Virus record (IMG/VR): IMGVR_UViG_3300032047_000178
Coordinates: 1 to 20,697 of that record
Source: a virus
Direction: 5' to 3' (one strand)
Length of the DNA: 20,697 bases
The notes under the pieces are model-generated. The model did no database searches and was not told the DNA's origin. It saw nothing but the letters and a program-made list of their open reading frames with translations. This document shows positions 4,698-20,697 of this stretch, one piece after another; position 1 is the stretch's first letter; every line of letters begins with the position of its first letter. Both the position numbers and the translations under genes were made by a program.

Positions 4698-6254
4698 ATG
4701 TCTAATGCAATCGTAAAAAACCTTAACTTCGGAGACGAAGCTAGGGAAAATGTATTTAAAGGTATAACTAAACTTACACAAGCTGTTAGCTCCACTTTAG
4801 GAGCTAGCGGTAAGTGTGTAATGCTAGAAGATTCAACAGGTAAACCTATTATAACTAAAGATGGTGTTACTGTAGCTGATTCAATTATACTTAGAGATCC
4901 AGTAGAAAACATGGGCGCTACTTTATTAAAAGAAGCAGCTCGTAAAACAGTTAAAGAAGCAGGTGATGGAACTACCACCGCTACATTATTAGCTTATGCT
5001 ATTTTGCAAGAAGCTTATAAAGTTGCTGATAAAAATAATTCCAGACAACTTAAAAATGGAATTAACAGTGCTGTTGAAAAAGTAGTTAAATATTTAGAAT
5101 CTATTAGTGTTCCAGTTAAAGGAAACATGATAGATCAAATAGCTACTATATCAACAAATAATGATAAAAAATTAGGAGAAATTATTGCTAATGCTTTTAG
5201 ATCAGTAGATAACACAGGTGTTGTTATGATGGAGGTTTCAGCTTCAGGTAAAACAGAAGTTGAAATTGTTGAAGGAGTTCAATATGATAAAGGATTAACA
5301 AATTCTCATTTTATAACCAACAAGCAGAATAAAACTGCTGAATTAGAAAACCCATTAGTATTATTGGTTGAATCACCTATTGAAACAATAAGACAAATTC
5401 AATCAGTGCTAGAGTACGTAATAAAAAACAACAAACCTTTGCTTATTATAGGCGATTTAGAACAAGGTGTTTTATCAGCTCTAGCAATGAATAAAATGAA
5501 GGGTAATATAAAGATAAATGTTATTGATGCTCCAACATATGGTATTAATAAAAAACAAACACTAGATGATTTATCTTTATTAACAGGCGCTACTATTGTA
5601 AATGAGGATCTAGGTGATGACATGGATTTGATACAAGTAGAATATTTAGGCTCATGTTTAAAGAGTGTTACATCGCACTCTGAAACTATTATTCAAGTAA
5701 AAGAGACTTCAAAAGAAGTAGAAGAAGTAATAAATAGTATAAAAGAAAAATTAAAACAAGATAACCCTTCTCACGAGGTTATAAAATTAGAGAAGAGATT
5801 AGCTATGTTAGCCGCTAAAATAGCTGTAGTAAAAGTAGGTGCTAATTCTGATATAGAATTAAAAGAAAAACAAGATAGAGTAGAAGATGCTATATGTGCT
5901 ACTAAAGCTGCTATAAAAGAAGGAATTGTTCCAGGAGGAGGAGTTGCGTTATTAAACGCTGCTTTAAAAATGGAAGAAGAAAATGAAGGGGAAAAAGTTT
6001 TAGGTAAAGCTATAATATCACCTTATAAAACAATTTTACAAAATGCAGGTATTGAATCAATTACTATACCTGCTAAAAATGGGGACGGAATTAATGTAGT
6101 TACAGGAAATATGGTAGATATGATTGAAGCTGGAATTATAGATCCATTGTTAGTTACAAAAAGTGCATTAAAAAATGCAGCAAGTGTAGCAACCACTATA
6201 TTGTCAACAGATTGTGTAATTAATAATTTAAGAATCGATGAAGGCAGTAGGTAG
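4698..6254 (+). CDS. groEL: Phage-encoded GroEL chaperonin (60 kDa family)
   Basis: A 518-residue chaperonin subunit that would form an ATP-driven folding ring in the cytoplasm. Hallmarks: ITKDG at 52-56, the GDGTTT ATP site at 89-94, RVEDA at 394-398, the VPGGGVAL turn near 411-418 and IDP at 481-483. Equatorial, intermediate and apical regions are all present in order, so this is a full chaperonin and not a fragment. Differences from E. coli GroEL: the nucleotide-loop TLGPKG reads TLGASG (33-38); the apical substrate-groove YLSPYF reads LTNSHF (200-205); and the C-terminus ends at RIDEGSR without the Gly-Gly-Met tail. Codon use and AT content match the phage neighbours. The gene overlaps groES by 17 nt. 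Probable clients are phage virion proteins (inference). Confidence 0.96.
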   Translation: MSNAIVKNLNFGDEARENVFKGITKLTQAVSSTLGASGKCVMLEDSTGKPIITKDGVTVADSIILRDPVENMGATLLKEAARKTVKEAGDGTTTATLLAYAILQEAYKVADKNNSRQLKNGINSAVEKVVKYLESISVPVKGNMIDQIATISTNNDKKLGEIIANAFRSVDNTGVVMMEVSASGKTEVEIVEGVQYDKGLTNSHFITNKQNKTAELENPLVLLVESPIETIRQIQSVLEYVIKNNKPLLIIGDLEQGVLSALAMNKMKGNIKINVIDAPTYGINKKQTLDDLSLLTGATIVNEDLGDDMDLIQVEYLGSCLKSVTSHSETIIQVKETSKEVEEVINSIKEKLKQDNPSHEVIKLEKRLAMLAAKIAVVKVGANSDIELKEKQDRVEDAICATKAAIKEGIVPGGGVALLNAALKMEEENEGEKVLGKAIISPYKTILQNAGIESITIPAKNGDGINVVTGNMVDMIEAGIIDPLLVTKSALKNAASVATTILSTDCVINNLRIDEGSR

Positions 6255-6498
6255 AAATTTAATCATACAAAAAACAAAAGAAGGAACCACCAAAACAAAA
6301 GGTGGTTTACTTCTTGCAGAAACTCATAGGGATGATATTAGATACGTAGAAGCTATTGTTGTATCTGTGGGTGAAGAAATTAAAGGAGTAAACGAAAATT
6401 CAAAAATATTTTTTGATAGACACGCTGGTCATAAGATAGAAATAGAAAAACAAACTTATCACGTTATAAAAGCTCAGGATGTAGTTGTGGTGTTATGA
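6238..6498 (+). CDS. groES: Phage-encoded GroES co-chaperonin
   Basis: An 86-residue protein of the Cpn10 fold, the lid of the GroEL cage. It shows the family pattern: an R-x-L-I-I-x-K start (6-12), a mobile loop with TKTKGGLLLAE (18-28) whose GGLLL corresponds to the GGIVL hydrophobic tripeptide that docks on GroEL, a V-x-S-V-G strand (41-45) and the C-terminal K-A-Q-D-V-V strand. The usual L-x-V-G-D-x-V is reduced to NSKIFFD. It is slightly shorter than the usual ~95 residues. The start lies inside groEL (17-nt overlap), indicating co-translation. Its stop overlaps the next gene by ATGA. The order groEL-groES is the reverse of the common bacterial operon. Confidence 0.93.
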   Translation: MKAVGRNLIIQKTKEGTTKTKGGLLLAETHRDDIRYVEAIVVSVGEEIKGVNENSKIFFDRHAGHKIEIEKQTYHVIKAQDVVVVL

Positions 6499-6938
6499 AA
6501 ATAAATGCTAGTGATCTTAAAGATTTAAATATTCTTAAACATTATAGAATAATTAGAAAATGGGCTTGCAAAAATAATGATTTAACTGATGCTGATTTAG
6601 AGGTTTTAATATATCTAGATTGTATGGACCTTTTTAGTAAACATGATTTTGAACAAGGTGTTTATTCTTATAGTTGGGATAATAGAAGATGGAATAGATT
6701 AATTCAAAATGGTTGGATAGTTGTATGGAGACATAGAAATAGAACAACTCAAAAATATAATATCTATAAAGTTTCTTTTAAATGCAAACAACTTATCATG
6801 AGAATGTATAGAATCATGTTAGGAGAAGATGATATACCAACTAGTGCAAGAAGAAATAAATTAATAAAAGGTAATAGCTACACAGATAAAGTACTTACAA
6901 AAGCTATATACAATGTAAATAAAGATAAAACAAGATGA
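6495..6938 (+). CDS. Winged-helix (MarR-like) DNA-binding-type protein
   Basis: A 147-residue protein beginning at the ATGA overlap with groES. The predicted architecture is helical, with an acidic helix (LTDADLEVLIYLDCM, about 29-43), a Trp/Arg-rich recognition-type helix (SWDNRRWNRLIQNGW, about 60-74), then a beta-hairpin wing with basic residues (VVWRHRNRTTQKYNIYKVS), followed by more helix and a basic tail. This matches the layout of MarR-type winged helices, although I see no diagnostic signature that settles the family. It could regulate late genes, or be a virion or DNA-packaging protein that uses the fold. Cys24, Cys43 and Cys97 are scattered and do not form a zinc motif. The fold is likely; the target is unknown. 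Confidence 0.6.
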   Translation: MKINASDLKDLNILKHYRIIRKWACKNNDLTDADLEVLIYLDCMDLFSKHDFEQGVYSYSWDNRRWNRLIQNGWIVVWRHRNRTTQKYNIYKVSFKCKQLIMRMYRIMLGEDDIPTSARRNKLIKGNSYTDKVLTKAIYNVNKDKTR

Positions 6939-7291
6939 AAAAAAGTCCATTAAATTTTGGTTTTGGTGCTCTATTAGGAGGTGGTAGTATTAGAGGAATT
7001 GCCGACATGTTAAGATCAAGAAGAAGTAAAAATAGAGTAGGTGGTAGTCAAAATGCTATCATGACTAAATTAAATGAAATTAGTACTAAATTAGATGGTG
7101 GAACACCACCAGCTCCTTCAGCTCCACAAGGTCAAACTGCTGGAACAACTGGTTTAGTTAATAGCGCTGCTGATGTAAGTGAAACAATGATAGATCCTAC
7201 TGAAGTAAACGAAAGCATGATGGGTGAAAATGATGTTGTTAAAGACCAAACTGCATTAATGATGAAAAAAAACAATAAAAAAAAGAAATAA
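6935..7291 (+). CDS. Small SPL-motif protein with basic C-terminus
   Basis: A 118-residue protein overlapping the previous gene by ATGA. It starts MKKSPLNFGFGALLGGG, a Gly/hydrophobic N-terminal stretch that may be weakly membrane-associated or a buried helix. An Arg-rich patch (RSRRSKNR) follows, then a Pro/Ala/Ser-rich disordered linker (TPPAPSAPQGQ) and a Met-rich, acidic segment. It ends in a nearly pure Lys/Asn tail. The KSPL at residues 3-6 belongs to a motif found across the following genes. No known domain recognised. The composition suggests a virion-associated or assembly protein rather than an enzyme; that is inference. Confidence 0.7.
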   Translation: MKKSPLNFGFGALLGGGSIRGIADMLRSRRSKNRVGGSQNAIMTKLNEISTKLDGGTPPAPSAPQGQTAGTTGLVNSAADVSETMIDPTEVNESMMGENDVVKDQTALMMKKNNKKKK

Positions 7292-7293
7292 TT

Positions 7294-7512
7294 ATGTCAC
7301 ATCACAAAAAATATGATCCTTCAATGGAAAGATTAAAACCAGGAACTAAAGTTGGTATAGTAGGTGAATCTCACGTTTGGGATGGACCTTTAAATCAAGA
7401 AGGTAGAGCGCACGGTATGGGTTCAAGTTCTGGTATAACAGGAATGGAAGTTTTAAAAGCACCTACAATGTATAAAGCAGGTCCAATAAGTCAAATAGCT
7501 AAGGGAAAATAA
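7294..7512 (+). CDS. Small Gly-rich protein of unknown function
   Basis: A 72-residue protein two bases after the preceding stop. It is soluble and Gly/Lys/His-rich, with a MSHHKKYDPS start, a central GIVGESHVWDGPLNQEG segment and a C-terminal MYKAGPISQIAKGK. The last part loosely resembles the SPL-type motif of its neighbours (GPIS with flanking Lys), but this is weak. No domain recognised. Its position in the middle of a tightly spaced cluster on the same strand supports that it is translated. Confidence 0.6.
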   Translation: MSHHKKYDPSMERLKPGTKVGIVGESHVWDGPLNQEGRAHGMGSSSGITGMEVLKAPTMYKAGPISQIAKGK

Positions 7513-7513
7513 T

Positions 7514-7723
7514 ATGTATACACAATATAGCAGTCCGTTTTTTAAAGAAGGATTTCCAGAAATAAAAGAAGAAAATAAAGGTAAGTTTACAGCTTGGGCT
7601 AAAAAGAACGGCTTTAAAGATGCATGTTCTGCAGCTTCAGCAGTAATGTCAAGTAAAGATAATTATAGCGAAGAAGTTGTTAAAATGGCTAATTACGCTA
7701 ATAACTTTGGTTGTAAAAAATAA
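7514..7723 (+). CDS. Small helical protein with ACSAASAVM core
   Basis: A 69-residue protein separated by one base from the previous stop. It begins MYTQYSSPFFKEGFPE, carrying an SPF element, then forms a compact helical module: KFTAWAKKNGFK, DACSAASAVMSSKDNYS and EEVVKMANYANNFG, ending CKK. I associate the pattern K-F-T-A-W-A-K...A-x-x-A-V-M...K-Y-S...A-N-x-A with small modules in phage structural regions, but cannot verify this without a search. Two Cys (C38, C67) could form a pair only outside the cell. Function unknown. Confidence 0.65.
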   Translation: MYTQYSSPFFKEGFPEIKEENKGKFTAWAKKNGFKDACSAASAVMSSKDNYSEEVVKMANYANNFGCKK

Positions 7724-7726
7724 GAT

Positions 7727-8212
7727 ATGTCAAATCACAAAAATATAAAACTTAAAAAATCACCAGAACTTAACCAACAAACTAAAGATAGTTTACAAGG
7801 TGAGGCTTGGAAATACGGTAAAGCTTTTTATAGCCCTAAACATAAGGTGAATGTAGATCCAGAAGATGGAGTATTATCAAACAGAGTGTTTTACAAAGAT
7901 GGTTCTGAGTTAAAATATGAATCTATCGATAAACCTTTTGACGAAAACAATTCAGCTCCTACTAATTTTTCTACTCCTTTTATGGCTAAAAGCCCATTAA
8001 AAGATACATCTATATTACAAGAAGATCAAAAAGATCAAGGAACTCCTTGGTCTAAATATAATAGTGATGATATAGCTGCTAACAAAGGATCAGGTAAACC
8101 TCTTCCAAAACAACATTTTAAAGGTCAAAGAGTTTATCCAAACGAAAACGACGCTTGGCAAACAGATGAGCAGGCTCAAGCAACAGAAGATTTAGAAAAT
8201 ACAGATAATTAA
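7727..8212 (+). CDS. Hydrophilic SPL-motif protein, probably disordered
   Basis: A 161-residue, highly polar protein without a hydrophobic core or membrane segment. SP-type elements recur: KKSPEL near residue 10, FYSPKHK at 34-40, STPF at 82-85 and KSPLK at 88-92. The second half is rich in Asp, Gln and Lys (QEDQKDQG, KPLPKQHFKGQRVYP) and ends in an acidic tail. Only three bases separate it from each neighbour, so it is part of the same transcript. The look is that of an extended linker or internal virion protein; no known family recognised. Confidence 0.65.
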   Translation: MSNHKNIKLKKSPELNQQTKDSLQGEAWKYGKAFYSPKHKVNVDPEDGVLSNRVFYKDGSELKYESIDKPFDENNSAPTNFSTPFMAKSPLKDTSILQEDQKDQGTPWSKYNSDDIAANKGSGKPLPKQHFKGQRVYPNENDAWQTDEQAQATEDLENTDN

Positions 8213-8215
8213 GAT

Positions 8216-8467
8216 ATGAAAAGTAATTCACCATTTCAACAAAATAGCTGTGCTAAAGCTAGAAAAGAGTTTAAAGCTGGTTACATGAATAGAACTAATA
8301 AAACTCCAGAAGAAAATTTAGCAGAATATAATGCAGAAAAAAATGAGTTTCATTGTAACAAAGACACTAACTTTAAAATGAAGCTTAGACCTTCAGGTGA
8401 TGATGACATTCCTCATACTGATAAACAAATTAGAAAAGCTAAAAAAGAAAAAAAGAAAGAATCATGA
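8216..8467 (+). CDS. Small basic SPF-motif protein
   Basis: An 83-residue protein starting MKSNSPFQQNSCAKARKEF, so it shares the N-terminal SPFQ element with the next two genes. The central part is a charged helix (TPEENLAEYNAEKNEFHC), and the C-terminus is strongly basic (KAKKEKKKES). Cys12 and Cys47 are the only cysteines. No domain recognised. It overlaps the following gene by ATGA, a sign of translational coupling. It may bind nucleic acid or an acidic partner through its tail, but that is only composition-based inference. Confidence 0.65.
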   Translation: MKSNSPFQQNSCAKARKEFKAGYMNRTNKTPEENLAEYNAEKNEFHCNKDTNFKMKLRPSGDDDIPHTDKQIRKAKKEKKKES

Positions 8468-8754
8468 GTTCACCATTCCAAAAAGCATTTAGTTCTAAAA
8501 GCCCTTTAAAAAACGGAGAAAAAACTTTATACTCTGAAGCTGATTGGCATAAAGTTGCTTCAGTTAATGATAAATACGCTGTAGATTTAGGTACAGTAAA
8601 AAGTTCTAAACCTAAAAAATCAGAACTTGGAGGTTGGGATAGTAAAGAAAAATCATTTTCATTTAAATTAAATGAGAGTGATAAAAATTTAATAAATTCT
8701 TTTAAAGAAGCAGGTAAGATGGCACAATCAGGTGGTCCTTACACAAAAAGTTAA
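8464..8754 (+). CDS. Small protein with SPFQKAF...KSPLK N-terminus
   Basis: A 96-residue protein whose first 15 residues (MSSPFQKAFSSKSPL) are almost identical to those of the next gene at 8779, differing only at one Ser/Ala. After this shared segment the two proteins diverge: here a Lys/Ser/Trp-containing region (EADWHKVASVNDKYAVDLG, GGWDSKEKSFSFKLNE) ends at GGPYTKS. The shared N-terminus on unrelated bodies looks like a targeting or docking tag. No membrane segments and no catalytic motif are seen. The gene starts inside the previous one (ATGA). Confidence 0.7.
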   Translation: MSSPFQKAFSSKSPLKNGEKTLYSEADWHKVASVNDKYAVDLGTVKSSKPKKSELGGWDSKEKSFSFKLNESDKNLINSFKEAGKMAQSGGPYTKS

Positions 8755-8778
8755 AATATAAATATAAAAAATAATAAA
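8755..8778 (+). promoter_or_regulatory. 24-nt A/T-only leader
   Basis: The whole gap before the ATG at 8779 contains only A and T, with no Shine-Dalgarno sequence. It is one of several such leaders in the window and is read as an unstructured, SD-independent initiation region. Confidence 0.4.
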
Positions 8779-9459
8779 ATGAGTTCACCATTTCAAAAAG
8801 CCTTTTCGGCTAAGTCACCTCTTGGGAATCACAAAAAGATCCAAAGACAAATAGATATGTTAAGAAACAAACCTGAAAAAGCTGAGAAAAAAGGATTAAG
8901 CTCTGAAAGCGGTGGTGGTATTGATTATGAAACTATTGAAAAATTACAATCTCAATTACCAGAAGCAAAAGCATCTCACAACCCACCTAGAACGGAAGAA
9001 AGTGATGCTAAAATTAGAGAAGATGAAGATGCTGCTCAAGGATCTGCTGCTGAAATGCGCAGTCCTTTAAAAAAAAACTCTCCACTAGAAGGTAGTTATT
9101 ATAGTCCAGCCGGTGAAACATATGTTTCTCACGTGGGTATGATTCAAAATGCGGTTGGAGCTGTGCAAAAAGCTTTGGATTCTTATATGACTGAAAGTGA
9201 TGAGAATAAAGCTAAAAGATTACAAGCAAGAGTGGATAGTAGAATTAAAAGATTTGATCACGAAACTGATGACGAAGGTAATGTTATGGGCACAGATACA
9301 AGTTTTATAAATGAAAAAACTCAAGAATTACAAGATAGAGCTACACAACATTTAGATAACGCGGAAACTAGTAAAAGTAACGCTCAGTTAAAAAAATTAA
9401 AAGCTGCATTAACTGCAGGAACAATAACACAAGCACAATACAACGAATTAATAAAATAA
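8779..9459 (+). CDS. SPL-motif protein with possible SHOCT-like C-terminus
   Basis: A 226-residue hydrophilic, largely helical protein. The N-terminal tag MSSPFQKAFSAKSPL is shared with the previous gene. A charged helix follows (QRQIDMLRNKPEKAEKKG), then a second cluster of motifs at 94-110 (RSPLKKNSPL and YYSP). The middle has a short apolar segment (MIQNAVGAVQKALDSYM) and coiled-coil-prone helices to about residue 200. The last ~25 residues (LKKLKAALTAGTITQAQYNE) match the pattern of the SHOCT oligomerisation domain: L-x-x-L-x-x-G-x-I-T-x-x-x-(F/Y). It carries at least four SP-type motifs, the most in the cluster. Function unknown; a scaffold or internal virion protein is a reasonable guess. 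Confidence 0.7.
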   Translation: MSSPFQKAFSAKSPLGNHKKIQRQIDMLRNKPEKAEKKGLSSESGGGIDYETIEKLQSQLPEAKASHNPPRTEESDAKIREDEDAAQGSAAEMRSPLKKNSPLEGSYYSPAGETYVSHVGMIQNAVGAVQKALDSYMTESDENKAKRLQARVDSRIKRFDHETDDEGNVMGTDTSFINEKTQELQDRATQHLDNAETSKSNAQLKKLKAALTAGTITQAQYNELIK

Positions 9460-9462
9460 ACA

Positions 9463-10128
9463 ATGGGACATAAAGGACACTGGGGCGAATATACTGGTAA
9501 CGCAAAATGGTCAAAAGATCACGCTCATACAAAAGTTACTAAAGGTAATTACAAAGCTTCAGAAAGAGATGACGCTGCACATATAGATTATCTTAAAAGA
9601 GATATTAAAGATGATCAAAAATTTCATGTGAAAGACAAAGATGAGAAGCAAACTGCTGATGAAAAGCATATATCTAAATTAGCAGGTGATATGAAGTATG
9701 ATAAAGAACATCATGGTTCACCAGCTGCTTACGGAGATGGACTTAAAAAACGTATTGCTAGAAAACAAGAACAAGTTGATGCTGCAAAAGCTTCTTTTGG
9801 AACTGACAATGTTGATAGAAGTTTTGATAGAAAATTAAAATCTCTAGAAAGAAAATTAAAAAGAGCAGATAAACGTGGAATAAATATAGAAAGCTATGAT
9901 ACTAGAGACGCTTCAGGTGTAGGAATTACCAAATCACCAGTTAAACACAACTCAGCTTCTGGTAGAAGTCATATACATAGTAAATATCACACTTCTTATG
10001 AAGGAGATGCTACTTTTCCTAAAGATAAAAAGAAAGGTGGACCAGTTGTAAAAGGAGATCACGGACCAAGTAGATTTAAAAAACAAAAACAAGAAGCAGA
10101 AGCTAATAAAGAAAATAAAGAAAAATAA
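9463..10128 (+). CDS. Highly charged Lys/His/Asp-rich protein
   Basis: A 221-residue protein with a very unusual composition: Lys, Asp, His and Glu dominate and hydrophobics are scarce. His clusters occur near the start (GHKGHW, KDHAHTK) and around residue 83. A coiled-coil-prone basic segment lies at about 95-140 (GLKKRIARKQEQVDAAKA, RKLKSLERKLKRADKRG). A motif of the neighbouring family appears as KSPVKHNS at 157-164, and GSPAAYG at 85-91 is similar. It ends in a Lys/Glu tail. No domain recognised. Such composition fits a DNA-contacting or internal head protein, but this is not demonstrated. Confidence 0.65.
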   Translation: MGHKGHWGEYTGNAKWSKDHAHTKVTKGNYKASERDDAAHIDYLKRDIKDDQKFHVKDKDEKQTADEKHISKLAGDMKYDKEHHGSPAAYGDGLKKRIARKQEQVDAAKASFGTDNVDRSFDRKLKSLERKLKRADKRGINIESYDTRDASGVGITKSPVKHNSASGRSHIHSKYHTSYEGDATFPKDKKKGGPVVKGDHGPSRFKKQKQEAEANKENKEK

Positions 10129-10144
10129 CTAAAATAACTAAGCA

Positions 10145-10294
10145 ATGAACTCACCATTAAAAAATCAAAATAAGGGATACGAATCCCCAAAACAAGAAAA
10201 AGCAAACTTGATGCATGATAATCCAATAGCAAAAGACGCTAGTGGAGGAAGAGATAAATCTTTTATGTCTAAGCATTCAAAATCAAGAATGTAA
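10145..10294 (+). CDS. 49-aa SPL-motif microprotein
   Basis: A short frame of 49 residues (ATG at 10145, TAA at 10292-10294) starting MNSPLKNQNKGYESPK and ending SKHSKSRM. It is below common gene-finder cutoffs. Support for it being real: it starts with the same NSPLK element found at the N-termini of neighbouring genes, it fills an otherwise empty gap, and it sits in phase with the operon spacing (16 nt after the previous stop). It has no hydrophobic segment. Function unknown. Confidence 0.6.
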   Translation: MNSPLKNQNKGYESPKQEKANLMHDNPIAKDASGGRDKSFMSKHSKSRM

Positions 10295-10359: not shown

Positions 10360-10806
10360 ATGGCAAAATTTGTAAAATTTAAAATTTCTAACGGTACTAC
10401 TTTAGCTGCTGGTGGAAACTACGCAAGAGACGTACTCGTTAATATTGACGATATTGAAAACGTAGCTGATGCTGTAAATGGTGGTGTTTATACTGCAATT
10501 GTAACACTAAAAGGTATTGTAGGATTAGAAGCTGGTCATGCTAATGGCGCTACTGTTCCTGCTGGTACTATTGGTGGTAGAATACTTACTTTAACTGTAT
10601 CTACTTCTGCTACTGCTGCTGTAAATCCAACAGCTATTACAGTTAGTGGAAACATGCCTTCGCAAGCAATTATGAGAGCTATGACTGCAAACCCAGGTGG
10701 TGTTGCTGCAAGTGCTCAACTAGGCTTAGATGGTGGTGGTGTAAGACCAGCTGATGACCAAATGTATTGGTCAAGTGCGGTATTCAGTTCTGATAACACT
10801 TTATAA
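10360..10806 (+). CDS. Small virion structural-type protein
   Basis: A 148-residue Gly/Ala/Thr/Val-rich protein with alternating beta patterns (KFVKFKISNGTT, VYTAIVTLKGIVG, RILTLTVSTSA). A C-terminal helix/loop (SQAIMRAMTANPGG) follows, then an aromatic end (DQMYWSSAVF). No Cys, no signal peptide, no catalytic motif. The low-charge beta-rich composition and a dedicated, probably strong leader suggest an abundant virion component such as a head decoration, neck or small tail protein. Some Gly/Ala-rich wording resembles the capsid protein at the right end, but I do not see true homology. The exact role is not determined. Confidence 0.65.
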   Translation: MAKFVKFKISNGTTLAAGGNYARDVLVNIDDIENVADAVNGGVYTAIVTLKGIVGLEAGHANGATVPAGTIGGRILTLTVSTSATAAVNPTAITVSGNMPSQAIMRAMTANPGGVAASAQLGLDGGGVRPADDQMYWSSAVFSSDNTL

Positions 10807-10972: not shown

Positions 10973-11281
10973 ATGGCTTTTAAACTAAACAATCCTCCGT
11001 ATACTAAAAAAACTCCGGTATATCATGTACCTATGGAAGATGGTGTAATGGGTAAAGCTAATAATAATGGAACTATTATTATAAATAAAGATGTAGATCC
11101 TGAGCAAGCAGAAAAAGTAGTAGCTCATGAAGAGGTTCACATTGATCAAATGAAAAGAGGTGATTTAAATTATGATGATGAAAACGTGTACTGGAAAGGA
11201 AAGACATATCCAAGAAGCGAAATGAATGAAGGTGATTCTGCTTTACCTTGGGAAGATGAAGCATATAAAAAAGTAGTATGA
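10973..11281 (+). CDS. HExxH zincin-like metallopeptidase domain protein
   Basis: A 102-residue protein with VVAHEEVHIDQMKRGDL at 49-65: the HEEVH (52-56) fits the HExxH zinc-binding, catalytic-Glu motif, placed on a helix. Downstream, PWEDEAYK (92-99) gives an acidic residue, Glu94 or Glu96, that could be the third zinc ligand, a gluzincin-like arrangement. A beta strand (GTIIINKDVDPEQ) precedes it, as in minimal zincins. It is far shorter than a normal secreted peptidase and has no signal peptide. It overlaps the holin gene by ATGA, so a lysis-related or virion-maturation protease role is conceivable. Activity is unproven. Confidence 0.7.
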   Translation: MAFKLNNPPYTKKTPVYHVPMEDGVMGKANNNGTIIINKDVDPEQAEKVVAHEEVHIDQMKRGDLNYDDENVYWKGKTYPRSEMNEGDSALPWEDEAYKKVV

Positions 11282-12619: not shown

Positions 12620-12836
12620 TATTAGAAAAATCAGTATTGGATCTGATTATAAAAATGATGCCATGCATTACGCGATTGGACAACAGGTCTATGGTGGACA
12701 TGATATAGCTTATATCGTATATGATGAATCCGATAATTCTTATAATATTTATATAAAGAAAAACAATGAGGTGTTGCCTTGGAAGAAGTTTAATTCTAAC
12801 ATGGCAATATCTGTTGAGTATGATTTAGAATACTAA
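12609..12836 (+). CDS. 75-aa conserved-looking phage protein
   Basis: A 75-residue protein overlapping the previous gene by 11 nt. Its mixed alpha/beta sequence holds RKISIGSDYKNDAMHYAIGQ, a Gly turn (QQVYGGHDIAYIVYDE), a Tyr-rich strand (SYNIYIKKNNEVLPWKKF) and a C-terminal ISVEYDLEY. The K-I-S-I-G-x-D-Y-K and AMHY-x-x-GQ signature gives it the feel of a conserved small phage protein near the terminase genes, which I cannot verify here. No Cys, no membrane segment, no catalytic motif. Function unknown. The next gene starts at the last base of its stop (TAATG). Confidence 0.65.
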   Translation: MQSNIRKISIGSDYKNDAMHYAIGQQVYGGHDIAYIVYDESDNSYNIYIKKNNEVLPWKKFNSNMAISVEYDLEY

Positions 12837-13441
12837 TGAAAAGTTTATATGATTTTATTATACAACCTTTAGGTGATAAATATAGTAACACGGTAAAGAT
12901 TGGAAACAAAAATATTGTTGTTAATACTAAAATTGAAAACTGGAAGTTTGTAAATAGATTAGCAATAGTAAAACAAACTCCTTTAGCTTTTAATACTAAA
13001 ATAAAAGTAGGAGATATTGTAGTAATTCATCAAAATGTTTTTAGAACCTTTTATGATATGAGAGGTGAAAAAAAGAAAAGTAGATCTTACTTTAAAGATG
13101 ATTTGTATTTTTGTGCTATTGATCAGGTATATTTATATAAAAATAAAGAAGGTTGGCATAGTTTTGGCGATAGATGTTTTATAAAACCTATTAAAGATAC
13201 TGATGATCTAACGTTAGATAAAGAGAAAAAGTTAATTGGCATATTAAAATATGGTAATAACTCATTAAACGCACTTAATATTAACCCAGAAGACTTGGTA
13301 GGTTATACGCCGAATGGAGAATGGGAGTTTTTAGTAGAAGGAGAGCGTTTATATTGTATGAAATCAAATGATATTGTTATAAAGTATGAGCGTAAAGGAA
13401 ACGAAAAAGAATATAATCCAAGCTGGGCGAGTAGCAGTTAA
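12836..13441 (+). CDS. Tandem GroES-like (co-chaperonin-fold) protein, putative
   Basis: A 201-residue protein whose two halves each resemble a Cpn10 unit. First half: YDFIIQPL (5-12), a KIGNKNIVVN loop (21-30), RLAIVKQTP and KIKVGDIVVIHQNVFR (55-70, compare the GroES V-K-V-G-D-I-V turn), closing with LYFCAIDQVYLYK. Second half: FGDRCFIKPI (110-119), GILKYGNN, INPEDLVGYTP (149-159), and EGERLYCMKSNDIVIKYE (168-185), close to the GroES E-x-L-I-x-S-E-S-D-I-L-A pattern. So it may be a co-chaperonin-related protein with a GroES duplication. It is not certain that it binds GroEL; it could be another structural beta-barrel protein. Its 3' end overlaps the next gene by 56 nt. Confidence 0.5.
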   Translation: MKSLYDFIIQPLGDKYSNTVKIGNKNIVVNTKIENWKFVNRLAIVKQTPLAFNTKIKVGDIVVIHQNVFRTFYDMRGEKKKSRSYFKDDLYFCAIDQVYLYKNKEGWHSFGDRCFIKPIKDTDDLTLDKEKKLIGILKYGNNSLNALNINPEDLVGYTPNGEWEFLVEGERLYCMKSNDIVIKYERKGNEKEYNPSWASSS

Positions 13442-13661
13442 AGAATTAATTAAAGTTGCTAAAGAACCCATTATAGATTTTGGACCAGATATTTCCGCAG
13501 ATAGATTAAAGAATGCTGCAGCTACTAAAAAATTAGCAATATTTGATGCTTTTGAGATTTTGAATAGAATACAAGAAGAGCAAGATATGTTAGAAAATAA
13601 ACCTAAAGAAGTGAAAAAAGAAACTACTTTTAAAGGTTTTGCAGAAGGGAGATCTAAGTAA
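13386..13661 (+). CDS. 91-aa protein in the small-terminase position
   Basis: A helical 91-residue protein directly upstream of the large terminase gene, sharing TAATG with it. A basic amphipathic N-terminal helix (VKETKKNIIQAGRVAVKEL) precedes SADRLKNAAATKKLAIFDA, a strong conserved-looking helix, then FEILNRIQEEQDMLENK. Its position suggests the small terminase subunit or a TerS-like DNA-recognition factor, but no helix-turn-helix is obvious and it is short for that family. The first 56 nt overlap the previous gene; no internal ATG before codon 60 is available, so this start seems required. Confidence 0.6.
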   Translation: MSVKETKKNIIQAGRVAVKELIKVAKEPIIDFGPDISADRLKNAAATKKLAIFDAFEILNRIQEEQDMLENKPKEVKKETTFKGFAEGRSK

Positions 13662-15871
13662 TGTACGAGCAAACTTTATATAAAGTATTACCTAATTATA
13701 TTAAACCTAAAACTCTTAAAAAACAAAATAAATTTAAGAAGTGGGAGTATGGATATAATGAAGATCACGATATGGTGATTATATCTAAAACAGGTGAAAT
13801 AGGTGAGGTATATGAAATTCAAAATTTAAAAATAGCTTTACCTAAAAAAGAAAAGGTTCATAAATTTGAAAATGATAGATGGAGTAAAACTGAATATCCT
13901 AAAGCTTTAAGTAAAATTAAAACGGTTTTTGATTGGAAACAATATCCTCAAGACTTTAAAGAAAAGTGGTTTGAATATATTGATGAAGAATTTAAAAAAC
14001 GTGAAGAAGGTTATTGGTTTTATAACAATGGAAAAGCTACTTATATTACAGGTACTCATTACATGTATCTACAATGGTCTAAAATTGATGTTGGAGCACC
14101 AGATTATAGAGAAGCAAATAGATTATTCTTTTTATTTTGGGAAGCTTGTAAAGCTGATATAAGAGCATATGGAATGTGTTATCTTAAGAATAGACGTTCT
14201 GGATTTTCTTTTATGGCTTCAGGAGAAGTTGTAAACTTAGCTACAATATCTAGTGATTCAAGATATGGAATACTATCTAAAACAGGTCCTGATGCTAAAA
14301 AAATGTTTACCGACAAAGTAGTTCCAATATCAGTTAACTATCCTTTCTTTTTTAAACCGATTCAAGATGGTATGGATCGACCTAAAACAGAATTAGCATA
14401 TAGAGTACCTGCTTCTAAATTTACTAGAAAAAGTATAGAATCAGGAAGTGAGGATTTAGAGCTACAAGGTCTTGATACAACGATTGACTGGAAAAATACA
14501 GGGGACAATAGTTATGATGGTGAAAAACTAAAACTATTAGTACATGATGAATCTGGTAAATGGGAAAGACCAAACAATATTTTAAATAACTGGAGGGTTA
14601 CAAAAACCACTCTAAGACTTGGTAGTAGGATTATTGGTAAATGTATGATGGGATCAACATCTAACGCATTAGATAAAGGAGGTAGAAATTTTAAAAAACT
14701 ATATGATGATTCAGATGTTACGAAAAGAAACAGCAATGGACAGACTCGCTCAGGACTATATTCTTTGTTCATTCCTATGGAATGGAATTACGAAGGATAC
14801 ATTGATTCTTACGGGATGCCTGTATTCGACACTCCACAAAGAAAAGTGCATGGACCTCATGGAGTACCAATTAAACTCGGAGTTGTTAAATATTGGGAGA
14901 ATGAGGTAGAAGGATTAAAAGAAGATCAAGATGGTTTAAATGAATTCTATAGACAATTCCCAAGAACCACTAAGCACGCTTTTAGAGATGAATCTAAATC
15001 ATCTTTATTTAATCTTACAAAAATATATCAACAGATAGATTTTAATGAAGATTTAAAAAACACATTAGGGGTTTCAAAAGGTAGTTTTCAATGGGAAAAT
15101 GGTCATAAAGATACAAAAGTTATATTTGTTCCAAACAATCAAGGAAGATTTTTAGTAACGTGGGTTCCACCTACGCATCTTCAAAACAAAAGATATTTAA
15201 AAAATGGAGTTAATTATCCTAGTAATGAGCATTGTGGTGCTTTTGGATGTGACCCATATGATATATCTGGAACTGTAGACAAAAGAGGATCTAATGGATC
15301 TTTACACGGTTTAACAAAATTTAGCATGGAAGAAGTTCCACCTAATCATTTTTTCTTAGAATATATAGCGCGTCCACAAACTGCTGAAATATTTTTTGAA
15401 GATGTACTTATGGCTTGTGTATTTTACGGCATGCCAATATTAGCAGAAAACAATAAACCAAGATTACTTTATTATTTTAAACGTAGAGGTTATAGAGGTT
15501 TTGCTATGAACAGACCAGATAAAAAAAGAAATAAATTATCTGTTACAGAAAGAGAAATAGGTGGTATACCTAATTCAAGTGAAGACATTAAACAAGCTCA
15601 CGCATCTGCTATTGAAACCTACATAGAACATTTTGTAGGTTTAAAAGAAGTAGGTTATGGAGATATGTATTTTCAAAGAACATTAGAAGATTGGTCTAGA
15701 TTTAATATAAATAATAGAACAACTCATGATGCTTCAATTAGTTCAGGTTTAGCTTTAATGGCTTGTAACAAACACAGGTATTCACCTGTTAACAAGAGAG
15801 AATTAAAAGCTGTTGATCTAGGTATAAAAAAATACAACAATAAAGGAACTTTATCAAAAATTATAAATTAA
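13661..15871 (+). CDS. terL: Terminase large subunit (packaging motor ATPase/nuclease)
   Basis: A 736-residue terminase, somewhat longer than the usual 450-600. It drives ATP-powered DNA packaging into the prohead and cuts concatemers. ATPase half: an atypical Walker A in NRRSGFSF (177-184), where the usual GKS/T lysine is Phe; Walker B LLVHDE (292-297) with Asp-Glu; and a motif III-like GSTSN (331-335). Nuclease (RNase H-like) half: GCDPYD (529-534, Asp531), AENN (595-598, Glu596) and THDAS (688-692, Asp690) can supply the metal-binding acids. Frame intact, ending at TAA. The start shares TAATG with the upstream gene; the portal gene starts at the final A of its stop. The order TerL-portal-scaffold-capsid matches head modules. 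Confidence 0.93.
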   Translation: MYEQTLYKVLPNYIKPKTLKKQNKFKKWEYGYNEDHDMVIISKTGEIGEVYEIQNLKIALPKKEKVHKFENDRWSKTEYPKALSKIKTVFDWKQYPQDFKEKWFEYIDEEFKKREEGYWFYNNGKATYITGTHYMYLQWSKIDVGAPDYREANRLFFLFWEACKADIRAYGMCYLKNRRSGFSFMASGEVVNLATISSDSRYGILSKTGPDAKKMFTDKVVPISVNYPFFFKPIQDGMDRPKTELAYRVPASKFTRKSIESGSEDLELQGLDTTIDWKNTGDNSYDGEKLKLLVHDESGKWERPNNILNNWRVTKTTLRLGSRIIGKCMMGSTSNALDKGGRNFKKLYDDSDVTKRNSNGQTRSGLYSLFIPMEWNYEGYIDSYGMPVFDTPQRKVHGPHGVPIKLGVVKYWENEVEGLKEDQDGLNEFYRQFPRTTKHAFRDESKSSLFNLTKIYQQIDFNEDLKNTLGVSKGSFQWENGHKDTKVIFVPNNQGRFLVTWVPPTHLQNKRYLKNGVNYPSNEHCGAFGCDPYDISGTVDKRGSNGSLHGLTKFSMEEVPPNHFFLEYIARPQTAEIFFEDVLMACVFYGMPILAENNKPRLLYYFKRRGYRGFAMNRPDKKRNKLSVTEREIGGIPNSSEDIKQAHASAIETYIEHFVGLKEVGYGDMYFQRTLEDWSRFNINNRTTHDASISSGLALMACNKHRYSPVNKRELKAVDLGIKKYNNKGTLSKIIN

Positions 15872-18276
15872 TGAATATATATACTAATACCAATAGTGCT
15901 TTCCCTAGTCAAGTAGTGAGTGATGCTGAAAAAGCAAGTATTGAATATGGGAGTCAAGTTGCTATGGCCATAGAATATGAATGGTTTAAGACAGGAAGAA
16001 CTAATGGAAATAGGTATTTAACTAATTGGAATCAATTCCACCAATTAAGATTATATGCTCGTGGAGAACAAAGCATACAAAAATACAAAGATGAATTATC
16101 TATTAATGGTGATTTGTCTTATCTTAATTTAGATTGGCAACCAGTTCCTATATTATCTAAATTTGTAGATATAGTTGTAAACGGTATATCAGCTAAAACA
16201 TATGATATTAAAGCTTATGCTCAAGATCCAGAGTCTATAAAGCAAAGAACTAAGTACGCTGCTAAAATACAAGAGGATATGCTTGCTAGAGAATATCTTA
16301 ATTCTTTAAAGCAATCTTTAGGTATAAATTTATACCAAAGCTCTTCACCTGAAATACTACCTGAAACTCCTGAAGAACTTGAACTTCACATGCAACTATC
16401 TTATAAGCAAAGTATAGAGATAGCTGAAGAAGAAGCTATATCTTCTGTTATGGATCATAACAAATACGATTTAACAAAGCGAAGATTAAACATGGACTTA
16501 GCTGTTTGTGGTATTGCAGCTTGTAAAACAAACTTTAATACAGCTGAGGGTATAACAGTAGATTATGTAGATCCAGCTTATATGGTTTATTCATATACTG
16601 AAGATCCTAATTTTGAAGATATATATTATGTAGGAGAAATAAAGTCTATTACAATTCCTGAACTTAAAAAAGAATTTCCTGATATATCTAATGAAGAATT
16701 AGAAAGAATACAGAAAATGCCTGGAAATAGAAATTATATTACAGGTTGGGGAGGTTATGATGAAAATACTGTTCAAATAATGTATTTTGATTATAAAACA
16801 TATCATAACCAAGTATTTAAAATAAAACAAACAGATCAAGGTTTAGAAAAAGCCTTAGAAAAAGATGATACTTTTAATCCTCCACAAAATGATGGTTTTG
16901 AAAAAGTAAGTAGAAGTATAGAGGTTTTATATAGTGGTGCTAAAGTGCTAGGAACTGATACTATGTTAAAGTGGGAACTTGCTGAAAACATGTCTAGACC
17001 TATGTCAGATACTACAAAAGTAGAAATGAATTACGCGATATGCGCGCCACGTATGTATAAAGGTAGAATAGAATCACTTGTAAGTAAGTGTATTGGTTTT
17101 GCTGATATGATACAATTAACCCACTTAAAACTACAACAAGTGTTAGCTAAAATGGTACCAGACGGTGTTTATTTAGACATGGACGGTCTTGCTGAAGTTG
17201 ATTTAGGTAACGGAACTAACTATAATCCAGCAGAAGCATTAAATATGTATTTCCAAACTGGTAGTATTGTTGGTAGATCTCTTACTCAAGATGGTGATAT
17301 GAATCCTGGAAAAGTTCCTATTCAAGAATTAACAGCTAGTTCTGGCCAAGGTAAGATACAAAGTTTAATTTCTACATATCAATATTATTTACAAATGATA
17401 AGAGATGTGACGGGATTAAATGAAGCGAGAGATGGTAGTACACCAGATAAACAAACATTAGTTGGTTTACAAAAAATGGCAGCTAACGCGTCTAACGTAG
17501 CTACTAGACACATCAAACAAGCTGGTTTATATATAACATTAAGGATAGCAGAAAATATTGCTTTAAAAATAGCAGACGCATTAGAATTTCCATTAACAGC
17601 TGAGTCTTTAGTTAATAATATTTCTAATTACAATGTAAATACTTTGATTGAGGTTCAAAACCTTAATCTTCATGATTTTGGTATATATTTAGAATTAGAA
17701 CCAGACGAGGAACAGCAAGCTCAATTAGAGCAAAATATTCAAATGGCTTTACAGCAAGGTGGGATTGATTTAGAAGATGCTATAGATTTAAGACAAATAA
17801 AAAACCTTAAATTAGCTAATCAGTTATTAAAAGTAAAACGTAAAGCTAAAGGTAAGCAAGATCAAGAAAACTCTATGGCTCAAGCTAGAGCTCAATCTGA
17901 AGCTCAAGCTGATGCAGCTGAAAAAATAGGTTTAGCAGAAGTTCAAAAACAAGAAGCTATTTCTGGATCTAAAGTTCAATATGAACAAGCAAGATCTCAG
18001 ATGGAGATTCAACGTATGCAAACCGCTGCACAATTAGAACAAGAAAAAATGCAGGCTCAATTCCAGTATGATATGCAATTAAAGCAGATGGATATGCAGT
18101 CAATGCAAGATAAAGAACAAAGAATAGAAGATCGTAAAGATAAGCGTATAAAAATGGAAGGTACGCAACAAAGTCAGATGATAGATCAAAGAAAAAATGA
18201 TTTAATGCCAATTGATTTTGAAAAAGAAGGTGCAAATCCACAAGCTGATGGAATGCCGCAAGGACCAACAGCTTAA
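15871..18276 (+). CDS. Portal protein
   Basis: An 801-residue portal, the ring at the capsid vertex through which DNA passes and to which TerL docks. It follows terL at a TAATG overlap. Mixed alpha/beta clip and wing regions occupy the first ~500 residues. VTGLNEARDGSTPDK (513-527), followed by ATRHI, is a typical portal segment near the tunnel or crown helices. The last ~150 residues (about 655-770) are rich in Gln, Met, Ala and Glu, predicted as a long helical coil, ending in a Pro/Gly tail (QADGMPQGPTA). Large size and a long C-terminal helical extension fit a barrel-type portal like those of P22-like or crAss-like phages; which is not decided. No signal peptide. Confidence 0.9.
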   Translation: MNIYTNTNSAFPSQVVSDAEKASIEYGSQVAMAIEYEWFKTGRTNGNRYLTNWNQFHQLRLYARGEQSIQKYKDELSINGDLSYLNLDWQPVPILSKFVDIVVNGISAKTYDIKAYAQDPESIKQRTKYAAKIQEDMLAREYLNSLKQSLGINLYQSSSPEILPETPEELELHMQLSYKQSIEIAEEEAISSVMDHNKYDLTKRRLNMDLAVCGIAACKTNFNTAEGITVDYVDPAYMVYSYTEDPNFEDIYYVGEIKSITIPELKKEFPDISNEELERIQKMPGNRNYITGWGGYDENTVQIMYFDYKTYHNQVFKIKQTDQGLEKALEKDDTFNPPQNDGFEKVSRSIEVLYSGAKVLGTDTMLKWELAENMSRPMSDTTKVEMNYAICAPRMYKGRIESLVSKCIGFADMIQLTHLKLQQVLAKMVPDGVYLDMDGLAEVDLGNGTNYNPAEALNMYFQTGSIVGRSLTQDGDMNPGKVPIQELTASSGQGKIQSLISTYQYYLQMIRDVTGLNEARDGSTPDKQTLVGLQKMAANASNVATRHIKQAGLYITLRIAENIALKIADALEFPLTAESLVNNISNYNVNTLIEVQNLNLHDFGIYLELEPDEEQQAQLEQNIQMALQQGGIDLEDAIDLRQIKNLKLANQLLKVKRKAKGKQDQENSMAQARAQSEAQADAAEKIGLAEVQKQEAISGSKVQYEQARSQMEIQRMQTAAQLEQEKMQAQFQYDMQLKQMDMQSMQDKEQRIEDRKDKRIKMEGTQQSQMIDQRKNDLMPIDFEKEGANPQADGMPQGPTA

Positions 18277-18303
18277 TTATTAATTATTTAATTATATTAT
18301 ATT
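18277..18303 (+). promoter_or_regulatory. 27-nt A/T-only leader before the scaffold gene
   Basis: The gap between the portal stop and the ATG at 18304 contains only A and T (TTATTAATTATTTAATTA and continuing). There is no Shine-Dalgarno sequence. It could be an SD-independent initiation region; a promoter is possible, but no consensus is recognisable. Confidence 0.4.
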
Positions 18304-19518
18304 ATGTCAGAATTAAAAACAAATGAACCTGTTAAACAGGAAGGTGACTTTAAAATAAAGTCTAAGCCTAAAAAACCTAAACAATTAGGTAATAGTGAAC
18401 AGGAAGTAAAGAAAGTAAATTTAAAAGAACCGTTAGTAGAAATACCTAACGATGTTACCAAGGTTACAATACCTAAGGAAGCACTTAAAGAAGAAAACAA
18501 TGCCATTCAAATCGGAGAAACAAAGGAAGTACCTGTGGAAAAACCATCCGGAGATAGCGCAGAGGTGGGAGAACCTATACAAGAGTCCAACGAGACTACT
18601 GAAGGGTTTTCTCCAATCAAAGAAGTAACGGAAGAAGTTAAAAAAGTAGAAGCAGAAATAAAAGAAGCTATTAGAGATGAAAAAGTATTAGGTAAACAAT
18701 TACCTGAGAATATCGAAAAACTAGTTAATTTTATGGAAGAAACTGGTGGGACAATAGAAGATTACACTAGATTAAATGCTGATTATACTACTGTAGATGA
18801 TACTACTTTATTAAAAGAATATTATAAGCAGACTAAACCACATTTAGATGCTGAAGAAATAGACTTTATCATGGAAGATAAATTCGATTTCGATACAGAA
18901 ATTGACGAAGAGCGTGACGTCAAAAAGAAAAAACTCGCTAAAAAAGAGGAGATTGCAAAAGCTAAAAGCTTTTTAGAAGAAACTAAGAATAAATATTACG
19001 ACGAAATCAAGTTGAGAACCGGCGTAACTCAGGATCAACAAAAAGCTATGGACTTTTTCAATCGATACAATAAGCAGCAAGAAATAGCTGAGCAACAACA
19101 TCAAACATTCCAGGAAAATACAAAACAACTTTTCAATGAAAATTTCGAAGGTTTCGATATATCGGTGGGAGATAAAAAATATAAGTACAATATAAAGGAT
19201 GTAGATAAAGTTGCTGAAAACCAATCAAACATTAACAATTTAGTTAAGAAGTTCTTAGACAATGAAGGTAATGTTACTGATGCGGCTGGTTATCACAAAG
19301 CAATTTATGCGGCTGAAAATGTAGATAGAATCGCGTCTCATTTTTATGAGCAAGGAAAAGCAGATGCAGTTAAAGACGTGGTGAATAAATCTAAAAATTT
19401 ATCACCTATAAAAGCTAGAACCCAACAAGGTGAAGTTTTTGTAAATGGCTTTAAAGTTAAATCTGTTTCTGGAGCTGATTCTTCTAAATTAAAAATCAAA
19501 AGAAGAAAATTTAACTAA
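18304..19518 (+). CDS. Putative head scaffolding protein
   Basis: A 404-residue, very acidic/basic, mostly helical protein between portal and capsid genes, the classic place of the scaffold that shapes the prohead. Residues 1-125 are low-complexity and probably disordered (Lys/Glu/Pro-rich), with SPIK at 103-106. Then helices with ENIEKLVNFMEETGGT (135-150) and an acidic/basic coiled-coil segment at about 183-260 (EEIDFIMEDKFDFDTEIDEE, KKKKLAKKEEIAKAKSF). A second SPIK occurs at 367-370. The C-terminus is basic (SSKLKIKRRKFN), a common capsid-binding feature of scaffolds. No catalytic motif. An alternative is an accessory head protein, but position and composition favour the scaffold. Confidence 0.82.
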   Translation: MSELKTNEPVKQEGDFKIKSKPKKPKQLGNSEQEVKKVNLKEPLVEIPNDVTKVTIPKEALKEENNAIQIGETKEVPVEKPSGDSAEVGEPIQESNETTEGFSPIKEVTEEVKKVEAEIKEAIRDEKVLGKQLPENIEKLVNFMEETGGTIEDYTRLNADYTTVDDTTLLKEYYKQTKPHLDAEEIDFIMEDKFDFDTEIDEERDVKKKKLAKKEEIAKAKSFLEETKNKYYDEIKLRTGVTQDQQKAMDFFNRYNKQQEIAEQQHQTFQENTKQLFNENFEGFDISVGDKKYKYNIKDVDKVAENQSNINNLVKKFLDNEGNVTDAAGYHKAIYAAENVDRIASHFYEQGKADAVKDVVNKSKNLSPIKARTQQGEVFVNGFKVKSVSGADSSKLKIKRRKFN

Positions 19519-19534
19519 TTAAAAATTTAAAATT
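19519..19534 (+). promoter_or_regulatory. 16-nt A/T-only leader before the capsid gene
   Basis: The gap before the capsid ATG is only A and T, ending AAAATT. It resembles the leaders of groEL and the 12368 gene and lacks a Shine-Dalgarno sequence. Confidence 0.4.
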
Positions 19535-20697
19535 ATGAGTTTATCTCCACAATTTGGTAGTATTATTCCAAGTCCGATTCAAACTCCATCACCTTCAGCT
19601 TATTTAGCTTTTAACGGTGGAGCGAATGACTTTGCGCAACAATATTTACCAGAAATTTACGAACAAGAAGTAGAGCGTTATGGAAACAGAACGTTATCTG
19701 GCTTTTTGAGAATGGTTGGGGCAGAAATGCCAATGACCTCAGATCAAGTAATCTGGTCTGAACAAAATAGATTACATATATCCTATGACAACTGTAGCGT
19801 AGCTGCAGGAGGAGGAGCTGGTGCTGGTTTAGCATCTGTTGTTACAATTCCAGTTGGTGCAGGTGTAACTAACGTTATATCTATTAACGATACTGTTGTA
19901 CTTTTAGACCCTAACGGTCAAGAAGCTAAAGGTATTGTTACAGCAAGAGCTGCTGGTAACGTAACAGTTCAACCATTTGCTAACGCAACATTTGATGCAC
20001 AGGGAATTAGTATTGCTGCTGCAACAATTAAAATGTTTGTTTATGGTTCTGACTACACTAAAGGAACTAGCTTAGCTGCTGGTGGTGTAGGTAATTCAAA
20101 CGCTAGAATAAGCGTTGACCCTTCATTCACACAGTTTTCTAACTCACCAGTGATCATAAGAGATCAGTACGTTGTTACTGGATCTGATATGGCACAGATT
20201 GGTTGGGTTGAAGTTGCTACTGAAGATGGTGCTTCTGGATACCTTTGGTATTTAAAAGCTGAATCTGAAACTAGATTAAGATTCGAAGATTACTTAGAAA
20301 TGGCAATGGTAGAAGGTGAATTAAACGCTAACGTTAATGGTGCTGCAGGAAGTTATGCTACTGCTGTTTTACCAGGTACGCAAGGTTTATTTGCTGCTAT
20401 TAGAGCTAGAGGTAATGTAAACGTTGGTTTTACAGCGGCTGCAGGACTTGATGAGTTTGATGCTATTCTTAAAAACCTAGATACTCAAGGAGCTATTGAA
20501 GAAAACATGTTATTCTTACAGAGACAAACATCTCTTGATTTTGATGATATGTTAGCTTCTATCTCTGGTGGTTTCGCTGGTGGTACTGCTTTCGGTTTAT
20601 TCGAAAATTCAGAAGAAATGGCACTTAACTTAGGTTTCTCTGGTTTTAGAAGAGGTTCTTATGACTTCTATAAAACTGATTGGAAATACTTAAACGA
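19535..20697 (+). CDS. Major capsid protein, 3'-truncated by window edge
   Basis: A frame starting at ATG 19535 (MSLSPQFGSIIPSPIQTPSP) and running to the edge, 387 codons plus two bases, with no stop. It follows the scaffold gene, as expected for the major capsid protein. It has an N-terminal arm with SPI elements, a helical LPEIYEQEVERYG segment, a Gly/Ala/Val/Thr-rich beta region, then an E-loop/A-domain-like part with RLRFEDYLEMAMVEGEL, LDEFDAILKNLDTQGAIEEN and ALNLGFSGFRRGSYDFYKTD. Codon use looks richer in C-ending Phe/Asn/Tyr/Asp codons than its neighbours, typical of highly expressed genes. HK97-like fold is the likely assumption; the sequence alone does not prove it. Confidence 0.85.
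   Translation, partial: MSLSPQFGSIIPSPIQTPSPSAYLAFNGGANDFAQQYLPEIYEQEVERYGNRTLSGFLRMVGAEMPMTSDQVIWSEQNRLHISYDNCSVAAGGGAGAGLASVVTIPVGAGVTNVISINDTVVLLDPNGQEAKGIVTARAAGNVTVQPFANATFDAQGISIAAATIKMFVYGSDYTKGTSLAAGGVGNSNARISVDPSFTQFSNSPVIIRDQYVVTGSDMAQIGWVEVATEDGASGYLWYLKAESETRLRFEDYLEMAMVEGELNANVNGAAGSYATAVLPGTQGLFAAIRARGNVNVGFTAAAGLDEFDAILKNLDTQGAIEENMLFLQRQTSLDFDDMLASISGGFAGGTAFGLFENSEEMALNLGFSGFRRGSYDFYKTDWKYLN

Follow-up and report, generated by a model that had tools for sequence, protein, structure and literature searches.

The window analyzed here is the 20,697-base IMG/VR virus record IMGVR_UViG_3300032047_000178 (positions 1 to 20,697). It contains a cluster of nine small genes, 6935 to 10145, in which a short SPL/SPF element, referred to below as the tag, recurs. 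Genes are named by their first position, related loci by L numbers, and genomes of relatives by G numbers. The cluster genes, followed by one probable and one possible further member, are:

6935-7291 (+), 118 aa, N-terminal tag MKKSPLN at 6935-6955
7294-7512 (+), 72 aa, untagged in the window phage, member of a conserved VGESxIWDGPL family
7514-7723 (+), 69 aa, tag MYTQYSSPFFK at 7514-7546, helical KFTAWAKK body
7727-8212 (+), 161 aa, internal tag STPFMAKSPLK at 7970-8002 (AKSPLK at residue 89)
8216-8467 (+), 83 aa, tag MKSNSPFQQ at 8216-8242
8464-8754 (+), 96 aa, double tag MSSPFQKAFSSKSPLK at 8464-8511
8779-9459 (+), 226 aa, double tag MSSPFQKAFSAKSPL at 8779-8823 and internal RSPLKKNSPL at 9058-9090
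9463-10128 (+), 221 aa, internal KSPVK (TKSPVK, residue 158) at 9931-9945
10145-10294 (+), 49 aa, tag MNSPLKN at 10145-10165
10973-11281 (+), 102 aa, probable member, predicted zincin-type metallopeptidase with HEEVH and a conserved downstream Glu, N-terminus MAFKLNNPPY
18500-18628 (+), possible member, nested open reading frame (ORF) inside the scaffold-position gene 18304-19518, MPFKSEKQR to YKSPTRLLK (MPFKSEKQRKYLWKNHPEIAQRWENLYKSPTRLLKGFLQSKK)

All motif copies listed in a first-pass annotation of this DNA were found in the genes it had named, and 7294 lacks a copy in the window phage. There are 11 copies of the pattern [KNSR]SP[LF] in the nine cluster genes, compared with 0.13 expected and a maximum of 3 in 5000 composition-preserving shuffles, so the motif is enriched over shuffled proteins. 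It is borne by seven cluster genes, against a shuffle expectation of 0.13, and is absent from the remaining 17 genes of the window (5257 aa). The annotation's statement that the bodies are dissimilar outside the motif was borne out by all-versus-all BLASTP of the nine proteins with the tags masked, which gave no match better than E 0.1. Without masking, the sole match was between 8464 and 8779 (E 2e-7) and spanned the tag itself. Comparison of the nine proteins with Pfam gave nothing above the cut-off, and comparison with PHROGs gave no curated match; the 8779 protein had one weak PHROG match to a family of unknown function. No match was found among 50,697 phages for the window by megablast or for the 8779 protein by tblastn.

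Related loci were collected from more than 500 IMG/VR loci as two sets, 84 loci around the terminase and 80 loci around a homolog of 7294. These loci share descent, and the clustering at 45% identity used for the non-redundant counts lessens kinship and does not remove it. SPL was the top enriched tripeptide upstream in the 84 terminase loci and was outside the top list elsewhere. Among 172 non-redundant proteins from the 80 loci, SPL was found in 40 (5.3 expected), with SSPF at 19 versus 0.3, KSPL at 14 versus 0.2, and SPLK at 15 versus 0.4 expected; genes neighbouring the cluster in these loci had no enrichment of SPL/SPF-type words. The tag had been described as often N-terminal, and this holds as a strong bias across loci, with three of the window copies being internal. 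[SN]P[LF] was N-terminal in 43 of the 172 non-redundant cluster families (1.7 expected), and SP[LFIVM] fell within the first 20 aa in 56 of 107 (13.4 expected), with ORFs called from the first ATG, so that some N-termini may be wrong. Genomes carry between 0 and 12 tags each, with the highest count in the window's type. In the nearly complete 69-kb relative G001, 7 of the 51 ORFs on the plus strand have an N-terminal tag, compared with 0 of the 41 on the minus strand (Fisher p 0.016); the minus-strand block appears to hold early and replication genes, and tagging in this genome is restricted to the plus-strand (late) genes. A search of IMG/VR with a DNA pattern for MSSPFQK was uninformative: there were at least 80 matches compared with 14 for a scrambled control, nearly all of them away from gene starts and in unrelated phages.

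The tag is shared at the protein level and not at the DNA level. The 12 window copies encode the serine by TCA, TCT, AGT, and AGC and use 11 different nonamers for SP[LFV], and 115 N-terminal copies across the loci use 28 nonamers. The AGY and TCN classes of serine codons are not interconvertible by one synonymous step, and the mixture of both classes means that recent copying of one DNA piece does not explain the set of tags. Genes 8464 and 8779 have in common a 15-residue extended tag, beyond SPF/SPL alone, which has diverged at synonymous sites and may be a duplication.

Across loci, orthologous bodies gain, lose, and exchange tags. The N-terminal SPL of 6935 is kept in L084, L086, and L088 (MKKSPLN/MSKSPLK) and is missing from the L085 ortholog, and the 7294 ortholog in L007 starts with MKKSPLK (alignment A1). 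Gene 7727 looks like a fusion, with STPFMAKSPLK at the start of the second half, since that half is a separate gene with an N-terminal tag in L084 and L085. The 10145 orthologs in L086 and L088 have lost the N-terminal tag and carry a C-terminal GGGSPLK instead. One body, that of the KYP family (alignment A4), is found with the varied tags MGRFSTPFLQKSPLK (L179), MAYIQNNPLGAAK (L189), MGYIQPNSPFGPG (L182), and MANFLINRIRGAGK (L174). In the GCAKSEGG family, the L163 member bears SPF and the L166 member NRLGAAK. In several loci, proteins with DUF6321 (PF19846) have a YxQxNSPF or NPF tag, and in L100 the tag is missing; the pelagiphage and cyanophage matches to tagged DUF6321 proteins align only from residue 23 on, downstream of the tag. 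In the sister loci L150, L151, L166-L169, L171, and L189, SPL/SPF is replaced in equivalent proteins by NPLGAAK, NPLGPAK, QxFGPSR, or GAAKMGYxQxFGAAR, and GAAR is a further look-alike in sister phages. Judged from these sequences, such look-alike tags suggest a common role with changing partners. The first-pass annotation had held that homologs without the SP element would speak against a shared tag. Some orthologs do lack it, on bodies that are conserved and on which the tag is gained, lost, or replaced, and these cases fit a modular add-on instead of refuting the tag. With the enrichment, the N-terminal bias, the mixed codons, and the tag swaps, a shared protein-level tag on unrelated proteins is well supported. 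Tagged proteins at L140 (8603-9295) and L163 (gene 2077 bases past the anchor) contain an extended hydrophobic helical region (IPGFGAIPDLINTVVSGGRAAHAA...) similar to segments that insert into membranes.

By sequence comparison, two adjacent domains of gp45 from the crassvirus phicrAss001 have homologs in the 7514 body and the KYP/L179 body. Gp45 is cargo protein 1 (C1), which has been detected in virions by mass spectrometry (MS), has parts resolved in the capsid and tail, and is proposed to be ejected (PMC10172136). The 7514 profile matched cr128_1 gp49 (E 1e-12) and jaberico g49 (E 5e-12), both of which joined the search set after earlier matching, and more weakly phicrAss001 gp45 residues 363-418 (E 3e-4). 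The cr128_1 protein is an ortholog of gp45 (BLASTP E 2e-109), and jaberico g49 matches gp45 via the same domain as the 7514 body. The unbiased results are a search of the phicrAss001 proteome and a tblastn search. When 273 family profiles were compared with the 101 phicrAss001 proteins, the top match overall was that of the KYP family to gp45 (E 2.5e-12, residues 268-329), and the tagged L179 protein has 56% identity over 52 aa with gp45 279-329 (E 1e-13). With the L179 body as the tblastn query against the 50,697 phage records, 38 of 38 matches were in Crassvirales, each starting downstream of the tag. The two matched gp45 domains directly precede its portal-bound domain (425-552). The KYP family lies outside the window, and the window's own link to the cargo protein is the 7514 body only.

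The 7514 model has three helices after a disordered tag, with a modest mean predicted local distance difference test (pLDDT) score of 70 and about 47-52 in the tag region. A search of PDB sequences with the 7514 profile found no relative, and Foldseek with the model found nothing. Comparison of the family profiles with Cellulophaga and Tenacibaculum phages and with Elemovirus gave no match between a tagged family and a virion protein proven by MS. FxxGGxL was considered as a crassvirus counterpart of the tag and was rejected as too weak (5 copies in gp45 versus 1.2 expected).

The protein encoded by 10973 is a predicted zincin with an IrrE/minigluzincin-like fold, based on matches of its model to IrrE/PprI and abylysin. 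H52, E53, H56, and E94 are invariant in the family (alignment A2), and NPPY, SPF, or PPF stands at one position of the N-terminus, several orthologs having NSPF, SSPF, or KSPF. The model (m84ce12d55cfb, pLDDT 82) matched IrrE with Z 6.3 over 79 residues at a root-mean-square deviation of 3.2 and abylysin with a Foldseek probability of 1.0 (E 0.02). Such peptidases are common among proteins thought to be injected (PMC5512222). The nested ORF at 18500-18628 is conserved at equal frame offset and position in 11 relatives, and several versions end in an SP element (KSPLQ, SSPIK, or SPARLLK). Of the terminase loci checked, the three without tags lacked the 7294 family and the remaining 26 had it, a weak association given that the loci are related by descent; no claim is made from this co-occurrence for 7294 as the tag receptor.

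Several neighbouring features were recorded. Phage-encoded GroEL (Pfam 7e-62) and GroES (2e-12) lie directly upstream of the cluster at 4698-6498 (+) and are also present in isolated relatives. The gene at 10360-10806 (+) belongs to a probably structural family, in which a TANPGGV segment near the C-terminus is strongly conserved among otherwise diverged members. A 3073-aa late protein with HEFLH is encoded in L105 from 12813 to 20000 and beyond (G003 28812-38033); its first 2396 aa gave no Pfam match, and similar giant proteins of 3300 aa and 2704 aa are encoded in G001 and G002, respectively.

The window terminase and portal match PHROG head-and-packaging families, and the nearest named phages by these proteins are the unclassified podovirus ctfjg026, the Flavobacterium phage Elemovirus, and Cellulophaga, Maribacter, and Tenacibaculum phages. 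One related contig was assigned to a Flavobacteriaceae metagenome bin. Because of these phages and this contig, a flavobacterial host is likely, and the tag-bearing group is probably one of large, marine, podovirus-like phages with flavobacterial hosts.

The reading favored here, with a probability of roughly 0.55, is that the SPL/SPF tag is a selected, short, flexible docking peptide that recruits small late proteins into the virion, from which they are ejected with the DNA. The peptide would take small cargo proteins to a common site on the head or tail during assembly, and the tagged proteins would then be ejected into the host alongside the DNA. Modules that are fused in one crassvirus cargo polypeptide would here be separate genes, loaded singly via the common tag. 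Packaging in the virion is itself inferred, as are a common head or tail receptor and roles of the bodies that are directed at the host, one body being a zincin metallopeptidase. Delivery into the virion was one of the three options of the first-pass annotation and has gained indirect support from the homology of tagged bodies to gp45; this homology is a pointer to packaging and not proof of it. A wider version may be put forward tentatively, at somewhat below even odds: a widespread group of marine Bacteroidota phages might run a modular cargo system in which SPL/SPF, or the sister NPLGAAK/QxFGPSR, loads almost any small protein into the virion, effectors are swapped by tag exchange, and the crassvirus cargo protein is the fused counterpart.

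Several observations weigh against virion recruitment by the tag. Most tagged bodies are without a known relative, and some tags are internal or C-terminal. The isolated relatives Elemovirus, ctfjg026, phi38:1, and phi18:3 have no tags in this cluster and, together with the range of 0 to 12 tags per genome, indicate that this type of virion can do without the tag. The KFTAWAK-type cargo-related domain also occurs as a standalone gene near head genes (cr50_1 gp16). A receptor was not found, the N-terminal arm of the major capsid protein and the C-terminus of the scaffold being without a matching conserved element. Both had been considered as the template of the tag and were rejected; the window scaffold has NLSPIK near its end, which is unconserved in relatives.

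An unlikely alternative is that the late proteins are never packaged and are instead docked by the tag, within the infected cell, to a partner outside the virion, such as the phage chaperonin, an enzyme of the host, or a complex for replication or lysis. The position of the GroEL/GroES genes next to the cluster and the resemblance of the peptide to a generic hydrophobic docking motif in a predicted disordered segment are in line with this. The homology of two tagged bodies to a virion cargo protein speaks against it, as does the presence of GroEL/GroES in the tag-free relative G002 and the untagged isolates. It is rather improbable that the tag has no common function and that the genes form one paralogous mosaic family, duplicating and recombining, with the shared start arising incidentally as genes are born at a favoured junction. 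Bodies do share small modules that are shuffled between loci, and 8464 and 8779 have their 15-residue start in common; however, non-interconvertible serine codon classes and many different nonamers argue against such a family, the tagged domains include the clearly unrelated DUF6321, KFTAWAK, and zincin, the peptide is retained where linkers have diverged, and the look-alike NPLGAAK substitutes on the same body.

A maturation protease site, with the N-terminal peptide cut off each protein during assembly, would be compatible with cargo loading and would resemble in position the 10-20 residue N-terminal capsid targeting sequence (CTS) propeptides of T4 head proteins (PMC5694885). This reading is very improbable: cleavage at the tags would split those proteins that have internal, C-terminal, or double copies, none of the window genes was identified as a head-maturation protease, and conserved residues on both flanks leave no single fixed cut position.

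Compared with known systems, docking and recruitment by the tag come closest to the T4 internal proteins, a varied group that has only a short N-terminal CTS in common (PMC3012670), and the earlier remark that no system with this layout had been described was too strong. In both cases, one short N-terminal peptide stands on several dissimilar small bodies, and head delivery and ejection are suggested. The phages analyzed here differ from T4 in the peptide, the host group, and the phage lineage, and in having more copies, some of them internal or C-terminal. By analogy the tag may work like a CTS, and identity as one is not claimed. The tagged proteins are not a crassvirus C1 protein: the bodies of the 7514 and L179 families share homology with single gp45 domains, whereas the layout differs, C1 being one 750-850 aa protein encoded after the muzzle gene and the tagged proteins being separate genes between GroES and the terminase. 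The SPL/SPF tag lies outside the stretch that matches gp45. Polyvalent proteins (Iyer et al. 2017, PMC5512222) are similar in their late-gene setting and in having a zincin-like metallopeptidase among suspected injected proteins, and the near-identical relative G003 encodes the giant late protein with HEFLH. Polyvalent proteins have many domains per chain, whereas the cluster proteins are 49-226 aa, mostly single small domains with no Pfam domain above the cut-off. Overall, the interpretation of the first-pass annotation is partly supported.

If recruitment into the virion by the tag is true, it would be a second, apparently unrelated case after T4 of one short peptide labelling many phage cargo proteins, and cargo loading could be tested by fusing a short peptide to a reporter. 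Small unknown genes of marine phages would be linked to the cargo of gut crassviruses. The tag would then be a sequence handle on the injected proteins of abundant marine phages that are uncultured, and most of these proteins have no recognisable relatives.

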